From an uncultured Eubacteriales bacterium (GTDB lineage: Bacteria > Bacillota > Clostridia > UBA1212 > CASDQQ01), in assembly GCA_949282945.1 (NCBI GenBank), contig CASDQQ010000005.1:1-32930 (forward strand): a stretch of DNA of 32,930 nt, in the 5' to 3' direction. How positions within the stretch are numbered: position 1 is the first letter of the stretch; each line of letters opens with the position of its first letter. Positions 804-31,741 of this stretch are shown here, in pieces. Under the pieces are notes generated by a model, which saw nothing but the letters and a program-made list of their open reading frames with translations, was not told the origin of the DNA and did not search any database. Position numbers and translations under genes: made by a program.

Positions 804-1322
804 GTGAAGAAGTGTGTGATAGTCATATTAGTTCTTTTTGTCTCTATATTTTCTGGATGTTCTGATAACAGCGGACAAGTCAAATTGGTAGATACTTTGG
901 ATAAGATTGAAGGTATGGGAAATTATGTTCCAACTGGAACTCTTGCCCAATCATTTAGTAAAAATGTGTACTATGAGGTATCGGATATTGCGTGGGAAGA
1001 TAATGTTGGCGTTGCAAAAGTAAAGATTTCCACACCGGATCTGGCGCAGTTAATTGCTGATGGCATTCAACAGGCCATTGACGAATATGGAACAGAAGAT
1101 TATGATGCTTTGCTTAAAAAGGCAAAAGAAAATATCCAGACGATTTTAGATTCTCCTGATTATCCGGTTTCTGAAAATACCATTGAAATGAAAGCAGAAA
1201 AGACAAAAGACGGATATCTCCTGGTTAGTAATGAAGAATTTGAGAGGATTATTTCAGGAAATCCGGAAAAAGTTTTTATTAATGCATTAATGGAGGGGAT
1301 TGCCGATGAAAGCAAGAATTGA
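804..1322 (+). CDS. Small predicted lipoprotein, function unknown
   Basis: This is a 172-residue protein with a GTG start; AGGAG at 791-795 sits 8 bases upstream. Residues 1-18 form a short Lys-Lys plus hydrophobic signal sequence ending in a lipobox-like FSGC, so Cys19 is the predicted lipidation site and the mature protein would sit on the outer face of the membrane. The mature part is acidic, with an Ile/Ala/Asp-rich helical segment around residues 75-110. It has no motif I recognise. The gene overlaps the next by 17 bases, which implies co-transcription and probably translational coupling. The two products may therefore act together at the cell surface. The lipoprotein call is good; the function is unknown. 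Confidence 0.75.
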   Translation: MKKCVIVILVLFVSIFSGCSDNSGQVKLVDTLDKIEGMGNYVPTGTLAQSFSKNVYYEVSDIAWEDNVGVAKVKISTPDLAQLIADGIQQAIDEYGTEDYDALLKKAKENIQTILDSPDYPVSENTIEMKAEKTKDGYLLVSNEEFERIISGNPEKVFINALMEGIADESKN

Positions 1323-3816
1323 CCAATATTTAAAGCGTTCTATTGTCATTTATATCTTGATATCTCTGTGTATTTACATGTTAGGCATGTCTGTATCGGT
1401 TATATATGCCTCGGAAGATAATTTTGAGGAAGTTATACTCTCATTAAACAGTAATGTTATTGATGATACATCAATCAGTCTTTATCTTTATGAAGATACA
1501 CACTATATTACTATAGATGATTTGTGCGCGTTAACACGGTGCTCCCAATATGCGGAGGATGATACTATTTCGGTTACTCAAGGATTTTGGAACGCAAAAT
1601 TTGATATTAAAAATCAGGTGTTTTATGATGGCTATCAGACTGTTGATATTATAATTTTAGAGGTATCTGAAAACAAATATGCTGTTCCGGCTCTTATGTT
1701 TCTGAGCTATTATAAGGCGATAGCGTTTATCGAAGGCCGCACAGTTTATTGCAGAATGCCTGAATGCACGGCGTGGGAAGCGCTTGATATAGATTATGAT
1801 AATACGTTACTCGATATCTATGAATTGTACGGCGGTGAGAGTAATGTTACATTTTCATTAACGTTGGATATCATCATGGACCTCATAGGGAAAGATAATT
1901 CAAGTTCAGACGATTATCTAAACGATGCGTTTTTTAGTGCGCTTAAAGTTGACATATATGACTACTCGTCTGTTCAGAAGTATAAAGAGGTAAGTCAAAA
2001 TGAATTATATTCAGACTTACATTCTGACAAAGGTACAGAATTTCTGGATGCAATTGAGAGGACTTTATCGTTTGTTGCGGAACCGGCAGAATGGTATATT
2101 CAATATTACTATAATGCTATTGAGAAATCATTTATGAATCTTGCGTATAATGCCTTAGAAGCGGGTCGGCGTGATGAAGTGGCTTCTTATGGGGAGAAAC
2201 TCTATGAAGCTTTTACTGAAAATAATAAGACGAGTGAAAACGCGGAAAAATATTTTGACAAATTGGACTATCAGATGCTTTTCATTTCCGCCGCAATAGA
2301 AACGGCGCAGGAAATGAAATATGTGAATGCTACGAAAAATCTTGTCTATAATGTAATGGGGCGGAGAAATCTCGACTATCTTAAAATATCAGCGGATAAT
2401 AATGACTGGACTGATGTTGCGGACAGGTATCATAATATATTGAGAGTTGTGGAAATACAGCTTGAAAATGAAGCGATAGGGTTTTTCAAAGATAAGTCTT
2501 GTTGGGAGACCCTTATTGATACAGATGTGTCAACAGCGGCTAATATTAGTAAGGGCGCATGGGATTCCGGATTAAATATCTCGCAGATGTTTAACGAGAG
2601 ATTTCCATTAACAAATCTGTCGTCTGATGAATGTTTTAAAACTGATCGACGCGCGATGTATTTGTCTGATTTACAGCAGAATGTATACAGAGTGGCGAAA
2701 AATACCCTTCAGGCTGTGCAGACCCAATTAAATGACCCTGAAATTTATAGTAAATATATTCAGGCTGCACAGCTTTATTGTCGAACGTCAATCGCTCTGT
2801 ATGAAAATCTGACTGCAATTGTAAATGAGCTTGGGAATAATCAGGATTACTGGACAAATTTATTTCAAGAGCGTATTGATACGATAGCGGTTTCGTTATA
2901 TCAGCTTACAATGATACAGAAAGATGGTATAAACAATTGTTTGCCTCTGGATATATCATCATTTCAACATAGTGCTGATGAACTGTCTGTTTTTGAAACT
3001 ATTCCTTCTCAGTTTACATTTTGCAGTGGAGCCGGGGCCTGGAGAACTGAGCTTAATATTGAATCTGACGGATCTTTTTATGGCGACTATCATGATGCTG
3101 ATATTGGTAGTTATGGAAAAGATTATCCTAATGGAACTGTATATATAAGTGAATTTCACGGGAAATTTTCATGTCCCAAAAAGGTTGATGAGTATACCTA
3201 TTCGATGAGTGTTGAGAGCTTTGAAATTGATGAAAGCCCTGATGTGTATTATGAAAACGGCACCAGATATATTACTGTTATTGCGCACATGTGGAATATT
3301 GGAGATGAAATCCTGATCTATTTACCTGGCGCTCCGATTGACAATTTGCCAGAAGGTTTTTTGGACGGATCTTATATTGACCCTTCCAGGCGCGAACTTC
3401 CATTTGGAACTTATTACCTTTATGTAGTAAATGATAGAGATAGGTTTGAGAGTGAGCTTGATAATAGTATTTGGGATGGACGTTACATATATTTATATTC
3501 TTTTGAGGGACGAGAATCTGAAATAAACCCGTCATATGTTTGGCCAAGCCATTTATTCTTTTGTTCTGATAATGGTGAAAGGCTGATTAAACTATATTTT
3601 GAATGGGAAACTAATGATCAAAGGGAATTTGAGGCAACTGATGAATATGGAAGCGGAACCTATTATATTTCCATTGATATAAGTGATGATTTGTCAACTT
3701 TTGTCGTTACTCTAACAAGTGTTGATGGAACAGACTTATCGGCATGGGGAGGAACGACAGACGGCCGCTTTGTTGCTGAGTATGTAAGAAAAAGTATAGT
3801 TGGTTCCCCGGCATGA
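1306..3816 (+). CDS. Large exported protein with stalk-like N-terminal and Gly/Asp-rich C-terminal domains
   Basis: I take the ATG at 1306 because GGAGG at 1292-1296 is well spaced for it; a TTG at 1300 in the same frame is possible. The protein has about 836 residues. Residues ~9-36 are a long hydrophobic signal peptide or signal anchor. Roughly the next 120 residues alternate short hydrophobic strands with polar turns and end in residues like YAVPALMF, resembling copper-amine-oxidase-like N-terminal 'stalk' domains of Firmicutes surface proteins. The middle is helical. Around residue 565 begins a beta-rich module with the pattern GAGAWRTEL...DGSFYGDYHD...YPNGTVY. I remember this pattern from other clostridial exported proteins, but I know of no assigned function. 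There is no anchor at the C terminus. A hairpin at 3894-3931 follows. This is a hypothetical surface protein, probably working with the overlapping lipoprotein upstream. Confidence 0.75.
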   Translation: MKARIDQYLKRSIVIYILISLCIYMLGMSVSVIYASEDNFEEVILSLNSNVIDDTSISLYLYEDTHYITIDDLCALTRCSQYAEDDTISVTQGFWNAKFDIKNQVFYDGYQTVDIIILEVSENKYAVPALMFLSYYKAIAFIEGRTVYCRMPECTAWEALDIDYDNTLLDIYELYGGESNVTFSLTLDIIMDLIGKDNSSSDDYLNDAFFSALKVDIYDYSSVQKYKEVSQNELYSDLHSDKGTEFLDAIERTLSFVAEPAEWYIQYYYNAIEKSFMNLAYNALEAGRRDEVASYGEKLYEAFTENNKTSENAEKYFDKLDYQMLFISAAIETAQEMKYVNATKNLVYNVMGRRNLDYLKISADNNDWTDVADRYHNILRVVEIQLENEAIGFFKDKSCWETLIDTDVSTAANISKGAWDSGLNISQMFNERFPLTNLSSDECFKTDRRAMYLSDLQQNVYRVAKNTLQAVQTQLNDPEIYSKYIQAAQLYCRTSIALYENLTAIVNELGNNQDYWTNLFQERIDTIAVSLYQLTMIQKDGINNCLPLDISSFQHSADELSVFETIPSQFTFCSGAGAWRTELNIESDGSFYGDYHDADIGSYGKDYPNGTVYISEFHGKFSCPKKVDEYTYSMSVESFEIDESPDVYYENGTRYITVIAHMWNIGDEILIYLPGAPIDNLPEGFLDGSYIDPSRRELPFGTYYLYVVNDRDRFESELDNSIWDGRYIYLYSFEGRESEINPSYVWPSHLFFCSDNGERLIKLYFEWETNDQREFEATDEYGSGTYYISIDISDDLSTFVVTLTSVDGTDLSAWGGTTDGRFVAEYVRKSIVGSPA

Positions 3817-14201: not shown

Positions 14202-14249
14202 GGCTGAAAGACAGAATATTTTTCTGGCTTTCAGCCGTTTATTTTTATT
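14202..14249 (+). terminator. Terminator between convergent genes
   Basis: GGCTGAAAG (14202-14210) pairs with CTTTCAGCC (14228-14236). The inner arms CAGAA and TTCTG lengthen the stem, and GTTTATTTTTATT follows on the plus strand. It ends the exporter operon and lies just 3' of the minus-strand gene ending at 14245, so it may serve both. Confidence 0.85.
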
Positions 14250-15357
14250 GGTCTGTTTCAGAAAGCTTTTTTTCAATTTGGGCTACGCGTTTTTCTAAAG
14301 AAGAAAGACTTTTCTCTATGGAAAGCATTTTTGAAATGTCCATAATATCAGGTTCGTTTTTTATATCGGTAAATGGATTGAATATATATATGAACATCCC
14401 TGAATAAATATTGCCGGGAACGGAACTTCTCAGGAATCTGTTTTCAAAGAAACAAAAGTCAATGCGGAATAAGCTCCCCTGATAGCGGAACGGCCGTTTT
14501 TCCAGGACAGAAGAGGAGCCACCTCCCCTTAGAACACATGTGTACAGGGTTTTGCCCAAAACCATGTAGCACGTAGTCTTTCCGTATATATGGGTAAGTC
14601 CGAAAAAAGAGTTCTTTAATTCAGAAGGCGCAGGATTTGCAATTTCGGTGTTTATAAATTCGTTTCCGTCGAACTGGTGAAAATGAATTTTACCTGAATC
14701 CGGACAGTGAGTTAAAAGTTGGATTTCTCCCGACTCGTCGCATAATATTCCGTCTGTATTAAGGGGAGAATCCCACTGAGGAAAATATTCAAATGAGGAT
14801 ACTACTTCGCCTTTAGAAGAGAATTTTTTTAAAACATTTATGCAGGCTTCATTTTTTACTCCCGTATACGACAGAAAAATAAAGCCGTCGTCGCTTTCGC
14901 ATATACCTTGCCTGAGATCAGCGTTATATATGTAATCTATTGCGCGGGGAGATTCCGCGCGGCTTTCTTCGGTATTTATACTCTGAATGGAAAGTATGTT
15001 TTTGCCGTTGTGCTTTATTGTGTAAAAAATATATACCGAGTCAAAGGCGGCAGAAATAAGTATATTTTTCCTGTAGTCCATGGGGGATTTAGAGGAAAGT
15101 ATTTTAAAGGAACGGAAAAGATTGCCTGAAAGACATCCGTAATATATTCCGCCTCCGTCTGCGGAAAACGCAGTATGAATGTTGCCGCTTTTATCCGCGG
15201 AACAGGAAAAATCCGGCTCGGCGTTTTTGTATAAAATTGTTATTGAGCTTTTGTTTCCGTTTTTGCTCATACTTCTCATAGAAATAGAGGAAGTTTTATA
15301 GTCATAAAAAATATAGGTGAAAGTTCCGTCCTCTTTTTTGAATAAAAAATGATTCAT
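14245..15357 (-). CDS. Unrecognised protein, probably beta-propeller with C-terminal coiled coil
   Basis: I start it at the ATG at 15357 (sequence MNHFLFKKEDGTFTYIFYDY), behind a modest AGGCAGG. The upstream in-frame codons run through the terminator of the preceding gene and are unlikely to be translated. The protein has 370 residues. About 330 residues alternate hydrophobic strands and short turns of the type GxIHTAFSADGGGIYYG, GFIFLSYTG and GEIQLLTHC, suggesting a propeller-like repeat fold. The final ~30 residues (MLSIEKSLSSLEKRVAQIEKKL) form a heptad coiled coil, likely for oligomerisation. There is no signal peptide or catalytic motif. The same architecture occurs in unannotated clostridial proteins as far as I recall; the function is unknown. 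Confidence 0.7.
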   Translation of the reverse strand: MNHFLFKKEDGTFTYIFYDYKTSSISMRSMSKNGNKSSITILYKNAEPDFSCSADKSGNIHTAFSADGGGIYYGCLSGNLFRSFKILSSKSPMDYRKNILISAAFDSVYIFYTIKHNGKNILSIQSINTEESRAESPRAIDYIYNADLRQGICESDDGFIFLSYTGVKNEACINVLKKFSSKGEVVSSFEYFPQWDSPLNTDGILCDESGEIQLLTHCPDSGKIHFHQFDGNEFINTEIANPAPSELKNSFFGLTHIYGKTTCYMVLGKTLYTCVLRGGGSSSVLEKRPFRYQGSLFRIDFCFFENRFLRSSVPGNIYSGMFIYIFNPFTDIKNEPDIMDISKMLSIEKSLSSLEKRVAQIEKKLSETDQ

Positions 15358-15432
15358 ATAGTACCTGCCTGTAAATTTTAATAAGTTATTACAGACTAAA
15401 TATATTTTATGTTTCGATAAAATATTACGGAT

Positions 15433-15466
15433 AAAAAAGACTTGCGGAGATATACTCGGCAAGTCT
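15433..15466 (-). terminator. Terminator of the cytoplasmic fucosidase gene
   Basis: On the minus strand the perfect 8-base arms AGACTTGC and GCAAGTCT (15459-15466 and 15438-15445) are followed by a run of T (complement of 15433-15438). It separates the fucosidase gene from the 14245-15357 gene. Confidence 0.8.
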
Positions 15467-15491: not shown

Positions 15492-16745
15492 CTATATAGC
15501 GTATATGACGCTTATATCGGTAAGCTCTTCCAGTCCGTCCGATTCTTCAATAATAATGTCAAGCCGTCTGGTCCTGATTGTGGGAAAATAGCAAATGTGT
15601 TTGTGACCTATAGTATATCCTTCATATACCGTATAGGCTGTCCCGTTTATATCCGGCGACGCCATAACTTTAAATTTTGCTACGTGATCTCCTGTGGTCA
15701 GATTTTCTGCCAGGACCACATGATTTACAAGAGAGCTTTCCGACAGAGTTATTTGAAGCACGGAATTGCCGCTGCTGTCTGTGATTTTCTTTATTTCAGC
15801 GATTTTTAGTCTGCATTCCTCAAAACGTCTTTTTATTTCTTTTCCCATTTCTACTATGCGGTCTACTTCTATCTGAGGAAGCAGGCCTTTTCTGTCGGGA
15901 CCTATATTTAACAGCAGGTTTGCGCCTCTTCCCACAGAGTAATAGTAAAGCCCCATAAGTTCGTCGGGAGTGCGTACGGCGCCTTCGTTGCGGTCGCTGT
16001 AAAACCATTGATCTCTCATGCAGCAATCGCATTCCGCAGGGAGAAAGTAGCCGTCTCCGAAATAATCATGATCTATACAGTCCTCGGCAAGATCTGAAAA
16101 TACTACATTGTTAGGGTTGCGCAGCCTGGCTATACCTGTTTCATTTCCAACCCACCTTACGTCAGGTTCCCAAAGATTAAAAAGAAGAATATCAGGCTGC
16201 ATCCTTCTGATCTCTTTTATGATCCTTTTTGTGTCATATTTGTGTCCGTGGGAACCGCAGCCGTCAAACCATAGATAGTCTATTTTTCCATAGCCGGTAA
16301 GTAATTCTCCTATCTGGTTTATAAAATAGTCGTCGTATTCTTTTGCGTCCATTTCGTTTGATCCGAACTGGGCGGGAGAGTAGTAAAGACCGACCTTTAT
16401 TCCAAACTTTCTGCATGAATCGGTAAATTCTTTTACAACGTCTCCGCGGCCGTTTTTCCATGGAGTGTTGGCAACCGTGTAATCGGTATATTTTGACGGC
16501 CAGTTGGCAAAACCGTCATGATGCTTGCAGACTAAGACCGCGTATTTTGCTCCTGAATCCTTTACAGCTTTTAACCATTGGTCGCAGTCAAGCTCTGCAG
16601 GATTAAAGGCGTCGAGGGGCATTTCCTTCATGTCCCAGTCCTGATGTCCTTCGTAAAAGGTTCTTATGCCGAAATGAAAAAATATGCCGAACTCCCAGTT
16701 TAGAAATTCAAGCTGATTCTTTTTAGGAATATAGTTTGTACTCAT
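15492..16745 (-). CDS. Alpha-L-fucosidase, GH29, cytoplasmic
   Basis: This is a 417-residue protein with no signal sequence, so it should act inside the cell on imported fucosylated oligosaccharides. The GH29 barrel is clear: FGIFFHFGIRTFYEG near the N terminus, then AKYAVLVCKHHDGFANWPS with the conserved HHDGF, YYSPAQFG, and the nucleophile motif YLWFDG with Asp161. SVGRGANLLLNIGPDRKG marks the end of the catalytic domain (~residue 310). The remaining ~100 residues form a beta-sandwich. The acid/base residue is not conserved enough in GH29 to name with certainty. An AGGAGG ribosome site sits before the ATG. It is transcribed divergently from the broken binding-protein gene at 16964, and a terminator follows at 15433-15466. 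Confidence 0.92.
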   Translation of the reverse strand: MSTNYIPKKNQLEFLNWEFGIFFHFGIRTFYEGHQDWDMKEMPLDAFNPAELDCDQWLKAVKDSGAKYAVLVCKHHDGFANWPSKYTDYTVANTPWKNGRGDVVKEFTDSCRKFGIKVGLYYSPAQFGSNEMDAKEYDDYFINQIGELLTGYGKIDYLWFDGCGSHGHKYDTKRIIKEIRRMQPDILLFNLWEPDVRWVGNETGIARLRNPNNVVFSDLAEDCIDHDYFGDGYFLPAECDCCMRDQWFYSDRNEGAVRTPDELMGLYYYSVGRGANLLLNIGPDRKGLLPQIEVDRIVEMGKEIKRRFEECRLKIAEIKKITDSSGNSVLQITLSESSLVNHVVLAENLTTGDHVAKFKVMASPDINGTAYTVYEGYTIGHKHICYFPTIRTRRLDIIIEESDGLEELTDISVIYAI

Positions 16746-16909: not shown

Positions 16910-16963
16910 GAAAAAAATATTAAAGATCATCATTTTTTTAAAACAAGAGGAGGAATAAATTTT

Positions 16964-17806
16964 ATGAAAAAGATATTTGCGGTTTTAGCAGTTTTGGTTA
17001 TCGCGGTATTTTCTTTACAGGTGAATGTAAGCGCTTTTGAACAGGACGGAGACCTTACATATGTAAATGTTGATGAAAGCGACTACTGGATATTACAGAA
17101 CGGAAATGATAGTGAAGGGAATCCGTTAGAATGGGGATTTTATGAGGCAGAGGCGCAGTACGGAGGAGTACAGCTCTTTGCATACGGATATCCGCAGTAT
17201 ATCTAAGAGCCTGAAGTGGGGTGGGTAATGCCAGCCGCCACATTTAGTTTTAAAGGTACATATGTGGGAGTGATTTCTGTTCCGGGAAACGACCAGGGGT
17301 GGATGGATATATATATTGACGGAGAATATCAGATAACTATAAGAAGTATAGATTATGAGGCTGAGGATTCCGACCCTGTATGGGAAGATATAAATTCTAT
17401 TTTGCTTTGGAGCATAGACGACCTGGAGGATACGGTGCATACTATTACTGTTACCCCCACAAAAAACATAAGCTATGATGAAGATATTACCTGGTCAAAA
17501 TGTAACGTAGATGCCATAGTTATAAAAGGAGAGCCGGTAAAGGCTTCCGAAGTAGAGGTGCCTGAGCTCAGAACGCCGGATCCCACGCCGACACCGGAAA
17601 GAACTGATACTCCTAAGCCCGCCAATACCGCGACTCCGACGAAGACTCCGGAGAAAACCGCTTCCGCGACAAGTCCCGCCAGTACGGACGCCGTAGGAGA
17701 CGGGGAGGATGCTTCTAATATGGGGATTATTATCGCCGTTATTGCGATATGCGTTATAGCAGTAGCCGTAGTAATATTTGTTATTGTGAAGAAAAATAAA
17801 AAATAA
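16964..17806 (+). pseudogene. Surface-anchored carbohydrate-binding-type protein, interrupted by an in-frame TAA
   Basis: One continuous frame of 281 codons is split only by the TAA at 17204-17206 (codon 81). Before it come a signal peptide (residues 1-24, ending VSA) and the start of a beta-sandwich (LTYVNVDESDYWILQNGND). After it the same domain continues (ATFSFKGTYVGVISVP, then WMDIYIDGEYQIT and WSKCNVDAIVIKG). Next come a Thr/Pro-rich linker (TPTPERTDTPKP), a transmembrane helix (MGIIIAVIAICVIAVAVVIF) and a Lys-rich tail. Intact, it would display a non-catalytic binding domain on the membrane. A CAA-to-TAA change would explain the stop; readthrough or reinitiation at GTG 17216 would give no signal peptide. 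AGGAGG precedes the ATG. It lies between the fucosidase and beta-galactosidase genes. Confidence 0.75.
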
Positions 17807-17836: not shown

Positions 17837-20960
<3,124 letters not shown>

Positions 20961-22999: not shown

Positions 23000-23743
23000 C
23001 TATTTTCTCTTTAATTTTAAACTTCCGAATATACCTGCGCCTGTTGTCAAAATAGCCAGTATGGCGCTTACGTCACCTGTTTTGACGGGAGTGTCTTTGT
23101 CGTCGTCTTTATTGCTGTCTGTATCTCCGTCATTATTTTCGCCGCTGCCTACATCTTCGGCGGGAGTATCGTTATTGTTATCTCCACTGTTATCGTCAGA
23201 AATACCGTAGATTAATTCCTCGCCTTCCTCAACGGTACCTTTATATACCTTTACTCCTTTAAGCTCCCAGACTGTGTCCTGTCCGCATGACCAGAAAGCC
23301 AACTTTTCTATTGTTGCTCCGCTTGGTACATCCAATTGTACTTTGTATGTCAGATCGCCAGTTTCTTCGAGGTCAGCATATAAAAGATTTCTTGTAGTTA
23401 CAAAATAATCATTATGTGTGTTATCGCCGTCTGGAGCCTTTGTATAAAAATTTCCTATTTCGGCGGCGGAATTTGAAGATTCTTCTACAAAGAGGCTAAG
23501 CTCTATAACCCATGAACCCTCTGTAAAATTAGCTTCATAGGAAAAAGCTTCGCAGTTTTTGTTTTCAAATCTTGCCGCCGTTTCTGTCACTGAAGCGGCG
23601 TCTCCGGCGTTGAGCCACATGCCGTCTTTGCCGTCTGCAATATCGGTCACAGACCATGTGCCTCCTGCCTCAGCGGCGAGAACGGTAACAGAAGCTGCCG
23701 ACAAAACAGTAAAGACTAACAGAAGCGCAAATAATTTTTTCAT
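23000..23743 (-). CDS. Exported, membrane-anchored protein with a binding-type beta-sandwich
   Basis: I start at ATG 23743 (MKKLFALLLVF), preceded by AAGGAAAGTGAG; codons further upstream give an unlikely N terminus. The protein has 247 residues. The signal peptide spans ~1-24. A ~140-residue beta-rich domain follows (GTWSVTDIADGKDGMWLN to VWELKGVKVYKG), of the galactose-binding or carbohydrate-binding type. Then come an Asp/Asn/Gly-rich linker (~178-220) and a C-terminal hydrophobic helix with the tail KLKRK. PVKTGD before the helix recalls sorting signals, but P-V-K-T-G has one residue too many for LPxTG. There is no catalytic motif. It is transcribed divergently from the lipoprotein GH2 gene, so it probably displays a glycan-binding domain for that enzyme. 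Confidence 0.75.
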   Translation of the reverse strand: MKKLFALLLVFTVLSAASVTVLAAEAGGTWSVTDIADGKDGMWLNAGDAASVTETAARFENKNCEAFSYEANFTEGSWVIELSLFVEESSNSAAEIGNFYTKAPDGDNTHNDYFVTTRNLLYADLEETGDLTYKVQLDVPSGATIEKLAFWSCGQDTVWELKGVKVYKGTVEEGEELIYGISDDNSGDNNNDTPAEDVGSGENNDGDTDSNKDDDKDTPVKTGDVSAILAILTTGAGIFGSLKLKRK

Positions 23744-24111
23744 AAAACTCACTTTCCTTTCTCTATTATAAATTATTTTGTACTTCAATAATATCAGCAT
23801 GGATACAAACCGTTCAATATAAAAATGATATATTATAAAAAATGCAAATATTTTTAAAATGTGGACAAATATTAGAAATAAAAAAAGCGATACCGCTATA
23901 AGTACCGCTAATAAAAAAAATCAGGTGGAGGAGATTTTTTTTCTTCAGCTAGTATTAGCTGACATATGTATAATAAACGTAAGAACATGGTTTTGAAAAG
24001 ATGAATATTGTAATATTTAAACTATTGTCAATATTTTTAAAATCTGTTATAAGAATACCGTGATATACTATACCTATAGAGTAAAAAATTTAAAAAAAAG
24101 GAGAGAAGTAA
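23744..24111. promoter_or_regulatory. Divergent control region of anchored binding protein and lipoprotein GH2
   Basis: Leftward: TTGAAC (complement of 23812-23817), 18 bases, then an extended -10 TGATATTAT (complement of 23788-23796). Rightward: extended -10 TGATATACT (24061-24069) with no -35. The identical box ATATTTTTAAAAT occurs at 23848-23860 and at 24031-24043, the latter over the expected -35 of the rightward promoter. This layout fits two activator-controlled promoters, with the AraC protein of the cluster as candidate. No gene is seen in this stretch. Confidence 0.5.
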
Positions 24112-30844: not shown

Positions 30845-31741
30845 TTATTTAATCTTTTTTCCGGATTTTTTTATTATCAATATTGCTGCTCCCGCAATTA
30901 TCGCCACGGCTAAAATACCTAAAGCCACATAGAGAACAGTGTTTGAATTTTCGGTATTTTCATTTTCCCCTGAAACTGTGGATGAAGGGGTACTAAAATC
31001 AGTTGGATTTGCAGTGTTGGCGGGGGAGGCAGATGTGGGAGTTGGAGCAGGGGTTTTGGTAGGAGTTGGAGTCTTTTCGGGTGCTTTATCGGCAAGCTGC
31101 AGAACTCCTAAAAAATCCGGATTCTGCCAAGCCTGGTTAGAACCGTCCGCCCAACCGTAGGCGCCGCTTCTCGAAGGACTTTCTTCTTCGGCACAGTCGT
31201 CTATTTGGACCTCAAGCCCTAACTCGTCGCCCGATTTAAAGGATATACCTAAATCAACCGAGCATTGTACAATATACCCCTTTTCGGTCTGAACGGCCAT
31301 GGAAACTATTTTCTCCTCTGAAATAGCGTTGGCGGCTTCAAAATATTCTCCGGTAGCTAAAATACCTATGCCACCGTCGACTCCTTCGGTATATTCCAAA
31401 GTATCGGCCGTCGAGGTAAGGAATATTTCCACAGCGTCACCGTCCCACCCAACGGCCGGAAAATTATATGTTTCATCGGTTACGTCTACGAGAAAATACA
31501 GTTTGCTGTCGTCCCACATAACCTTAAATACGGCAGACGATTCTGTATCATAGCCGTCTTTTAAAACATCGGAATAATATTCGGGAACATTTTCCCAAAT
31601 TGCGTCTGGAGTCTCGCCGAATACCGGAGTACCTTTTACAGCGATTGCCGTGTAATCGGGATCAGCTGCATATATATTTACAGAAAAAATTCCTGCAAAT
31701 ATAATACTGATAACTAAAAAAATACTCAGAGTTTTTTTCAT
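30845..31741 (-). CDS. CBM9-like, membrane-anchored surface binding protein
   Basis: This is a 298-residue protein with GGAGG eight bases before the ATG. The signal peptide is 1-25 (NIYA cleavage). Residues ~30-215 are a CBM9/DOMON-type beta-sandwich: AVFKVMWDDSKLYFLVDVTD, VGWDGDAVEIFLTS, YIVQCSVDLGI and LGLEVQIDDCAE. The Trp-Asp-Gly-Asp segment is the usual ligand-side loop of this family. Then come a Thr/Pro/Ser/Asn-rich linker (~218-265), a C-terminal helix (VLYVALGILAVAIIAGAAIL) and a KKSGKKIK tail. It has no catalytic residues. It is the first gene of the operon with the lipoprotein fucosidase, so it likely binds the glycan that the fucosidase attacks. Confidence 0.88.
   Translation of the reverse strand: MKKTLSIFLVISIIFAGIFSVNIYAADPDYTAIAVKGTPVFGETPDAIWENVPEYYSDVLKDGYDTESSAVFKVMWDDSKLYFLVDVTDETYNFPAVGWDGDAVEIFLTSTADTLEYTEGVDGGIGILATGEYFEAANAISEEKIVSMAVQTEKGYIVQCSVDLGISFKSGDELGLEVQIDDCAEEESPSRSGAYGWADGSNQAWQNPDFLGVLQLADKAPEKTPTPTKTPAPTPTSASPANTANPTDFSTPSSTVSGENENTENSNTVLYVALGILAVAIIAGAAILIIKKSGKKIK

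Follow-up and report, generated by a model that had tools for sequence, protein, structure and literature searches.

Bacterial genes interrupted by a nonsense codon, i.e., recent or apparent internal-stop pseudogenes, have been reviewed (PMC11078800), and many apparent internal-stop pseudogenes stem from assembly errors (Cooley and Wright, PMC11017572). The locus described here shares with the nonsense-interrupted genes of these two works (PMC11078800, PMC11017572) one in-frame stop, a frame that is otherwise intact, and relatives that are uninterrupted. As far as could be tested, it does not differ from them. The best fold matches of its domain are the jelly rolls of the CE2 N-terminal family (PF17996) and of CBM35. 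The reading that we favour, with a probability of about 0.6, is that a point mutation has recently created a nonsense codon in the gene of an accessory surface lectin, next to a GH2 beta-galactosidase gene. This value, and the smaller weight that we give to an artefact, are judgements and were not computed.

The window, i.e., the whole stretch of 32,930 nucleotides that was analysed, is an entire contig (C5) of a metagenome-assembled genome of 1.92 Mb (153 contigs, 84% complete). The interrupted gene, its parts and its two neighbours are as follows.

15492 to 16745, reverse strand: alpha-L-fucosidase-family gene, intact and divergent, on the upstream side
16947 to 16966, forward strand: Shine-Dalgarno-like GAGGAGG and ATG start (from the sequence)
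16964 to 17203, forward strand: upstream fragment, codons 1-80, with the signal peptide and the first sandwich strand(s) (codon usage, fold model)
17204 to 17206, forward strand: in-frame TAA, codon 81, within an 11-residue loop missing from eleven aligned relatives (sequence, alignment)
17207 to 17548, forward strand: downstream fragment, predicted core of a CE2_N/CBM35-like jelly roll, probably carbohydrate-binding (profile, alignment, fold match)
17549 to 17692, forward strand: Thr/Pro-rich linker, common to many other proteins of the genome (sequence)
17693 to 17803, forward strand: transmembrane helix and Lys tail (KKNKK), a C-terminal membrane anchor (sequence, paralogous tails)
17889 to 20960, forward strand: GH2 beta-galactosidase gene, intact, the downstream neighbour

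Between 16964 and 17806 a single forward frame of 281 codons is open but for the TAA at codon 81. It starts with the ATG at 16964, downstream of the GAGGAGG, and ends with a TAA at 17804-17806. The codon log-likelihood was +0.44 bits per codon before the internal TAA and, after it, +0.42 in the sandwich, +0.29 in the linker and +0.38 in the transmembrane segment (80-codon chunks of the other genes of the window gave 0.31 +/- 0.10). The remaining two forward frames had negative values over the same interval. By arithmetic at 40% GC, the 199 codons that follow the stop would stay open by chance with a probability of about 2e-6. The earlier note had described a surface binding protein whose frame, otherwise clean and without a frameshift, is broken by one TAA at codon 81. 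Frame, codon usage and relatives all agree with this description: we found no frameshift between 16964 and 17806, and the stretches before and after the stop are equally gene-like in their codon usage. Since, in addition, the eleven aligned relatives read through the stop site, the interrupted frame is one gene and not two. With two separate genes, the first would encode a secreted peptide of 80 residues and the second a protein of 196 residues from the GTG at 17216, which does lie four codons 3' of the stop. Yet the scan revealed no start with a Shine-Dalgarno-type motif near the stop, this GTG included, the downstream product would lack a signal peptide, and the domain is continuous across the site in the relatives. 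We therefore regard two genes as highly improbable, a reading that the sequences of the relatives largely refute.

To retrieve these relatives, we combined the read-through domain of the query and its three first relatives into a profile. It matched three genomes of the same order, with E values of 7.9e-55 (G001), 1.2e-89 (G014) and 1.8e-66 (G021), where the domain occurs in tandem copies without stops. We aligned eleven uninterrupted copies from these genomes; they are distant, being 18-25% identical to the query within the domain, and the source is the only member of its family among the genomes compared. The loop that holds the TAA is specific to the query (0 of the 11 aligned relatives have it), and none of these distant copies has a stop at or near the site. 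Eight columns are invariant across the eleven copies and the query; all of them lie 3' of the stop, and all are kept in the query. A natural end at codon 80, which the earlier note had named as grounds for refutation, is seen in none of the aligned relatives. No related lectin gene adjoins the GH2 homologues of G001, G002, G003, G004, G022 and G027, and no close relatives turned up among phages, plasmids, viruses and genome contigs.

The architecture proposed in the earlier note (signal peptide, beta-sandwich, Thr/Pro linker, membrane helix and Lys tail) stands, with one refinement. The TAA comes before almost the entire sandwich core, and the part upstream of it comprises only the signal peptide and the first strand(s). 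The query domain scored 20.8 bits with PF17996, under the curated cut-off of 27.9, and weak matches to this family were obtained for 9 of the 12 domain copies. The alignment-based fold model is usable for the core only (mean pLDDT 57, with several strands of the core above this value), and the single-sequence model had a pLDDT of 34. The top Foldseek matches were CE2 N-terminal domains and CBM35 (4xvh, 2wao, 2w3j, 2w46), with an E value of 6.3e-4 and a TM-score of 0.42 to CE2. Unlike CE2 proteins, the query has no attached esterase domain and is fixed to the membrane by the Thr/Pro linker and the transmembrane helix. We infer sugar binding, and it is reasonable to regard the product as a putative glycan-capturing surface protein. 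When intact, it would be a secreted, membrane-anchored carbohydrate-binding protein with a signal peptide, one jelly roll, a Thr/Pro spacer, and a C-terminal transmembrane helix with its Lys tail. Such an anchored protein would keep glycan close to the cell for the neighbouring glycoside hydrolases.

Tandem-domain surface proteins of the same order, encoded on CAJFUB010000036.1 (L084) and JAAYLF010000326.1 (L085), share with the query the domain, the Thr/Pro linker and the C-terminal transmembrane segment with a basic tail. Like the query, they adjoin carbohydrate-active enzymes. They differ from it in having at least two copies of the domain and no stop, and their neighbours are not GH2 but a protein similar to aceric acid hydrolase and an oligosaccharide amylase-like one (weak match). 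The related proteins of G014 are those beside the protein similar to aceric acid hydrolase (a match below the cut-off of that model), and those of G001 are beside the one weakly similar to oligosaccharide amylase.

One point mutation would have turned codon 81 into TAA, and translation would then stop beyond the signal peptide, about 56 residues into the mature protein. Because the domain core and all eight invariant columns are located 3' of the stop, this 80-residue product would have neither the core of the binding domain nor the anchor. No anchored lectin would be made, the released fragment would be devoid of the domain core, and function would presumably be lost. The lesion would be recent, since the frame shows no decay elsewhere. 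The earlier note had listed a very recent nonsense mutation and a sequencing error among its explanations, and it is these two that the evidence favours.

The second of them is the main rival of a nonsense mutation. The TAA may be a sequencing, assembly or strain-mixing error in the metagenome consensus, in which case the gene would be intact in the organism. In a metagenome assembly like this one, 84% complete and in 153 contigs, an assembly error would look the same as a mutation. The otherwise undamaged frame also fits an error, as does the frequency of assembly errors behind such pseudogenes (Cooley and Wright, PMC11017572). One metagenome assembly cannot by itself settle the matter. We consider an error possible, though clearly less probable than a mutation, by which the TAA would be a real base in the population.

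The background of interrupted genes bears on this choice. We scanned 1.30 Mb of the source genome, i.e., around two thirds (contigs C1-C121, apart from the tails of long contigs), for stops flanked on either side by coding signal in the same frame. This produced 86 mechanical candidates, most of which were ordinary neighbouring genes or antisense frames; only candidates without a nearby start were looked at closely. Two were true single-stop interruptions besides the lectin gene. The first is a Tn916-type tyrosine integrase (C26, 724-1929) with one in-frame TAA at 1504-1506 inside the Phage_integrase domain, and the Pfam domain spans the stop. The second is a large protein with a mannose-6-phosphate isomerase-like domain (C12, 2045-3865) with one in-frame TAG at 3215-3217, where the alignment with 1qwr crosses the stop; it matched no Pfam or NCBIfam family and had no relative in 30 other genomes of the order at an E value of 1e-40. 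With these two other genes each cut by one in-frame stop, the lesion of the lectin gene is part of a small background of single-stop interruptions. The total of three is a lower bound, as the scan relies on codon signal. Three genes cut once each, by two kinds of stop codon, are consistent with ordinary nonsense mutation or with scattered consensus errors. The two further cases in the same assembly thus add to the case for error, but about three such stops in 1.30 Mb also indicate that the assembly is not generally error-ridden.

The earlier note had also raised programmed readthrough and phase-type switching, and neither gained support. If ribosomes sometimes passed the TAA, a small amount of full-length lectin would be made: a leaky UAA would meter the anchored protein, with a short product that is secreted and, rarely, a full-length one at the surface. 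The stop does sit in a loop absent from the relatives, a place at which any residue might be acceptable, and published work reports cases in which an in-frame stop of a bacterial gene has persisted under purifying selection (PMC7918605). Yet TAA is the commonest stop of the source genome, ending 271 of 479 long ORFs (57%), and none of the 28 tRNAs found in this incomplete assembly has a UAA-reading anticodon. The base following the stop is a G, the RNA downstream is no more structured than its shuffles (fold z = -0.11), no slippery sequence was found at the site, and the relatives carry no stop there. The sole other stop-flagged match among the tail-sharing proteins of the order, an apparent second TAA case in G001 (C326), was rejected, being the natural terminus of its gene. 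Leaky reading of the codon is accordingly very improbable.

Phase variation often acts on surface proteins, and the gene could in principle be turned on and off by such switching or by local recombination. However, the stop has no tandem repeat, and the neighbouring inverted repeats, which are short or imperfect, are not positioned to invert the codon. The domain is single-copy in the source genome, which leaves no intact donor for recombination, and a point stop is not a usual switch. We give switching hardly any weight. The lectin gene seems to be broken in an ordinary way, or else the assembled sequence contains a slip; a new form of gene control is not what the locus looks like. As one more single-stop interruption it matters little beyond annotation, where pipelines would call such a locus a pseudogene or two small genes.

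The window encodes two more secreted proteins with a transmembrane anchor (30845-31741 and 23000-23800); one of the two has a CBM9-like domain, and the other matched nothing in Pfam. They belong to the same glycan-use cluster, which includes two GH2 genes, two alpha-L-fucosidase-family genes and an AraC-type regulator. Two long genes, at 1300-3816 (838 residues) and 14245-15462 (405 residues), had no Pfam match at an E value of 0.001. The linker, transmembrane helix and Lys tail of the query were matched at 13 other places of the source genome at E <= 0.001 and at 22 at E <= 1; no matched stretch contained an internal stop. The tail copies that we read lack LPXTG. Altogether, a C-terminal Thr/Pro linker followed by a transmembrane helix and a basic tail is common to many otherwise different secreted proteins (14-23 places in the source genome, and many in G001, G002 and G014), and looks like a lineage-wide membrane-anchoring module. 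The occurrence in this order of membrane-anchored, sugar-binding-like proteins beside glycoside hydrolases may be of modest use for the annotation of these Clostridia.
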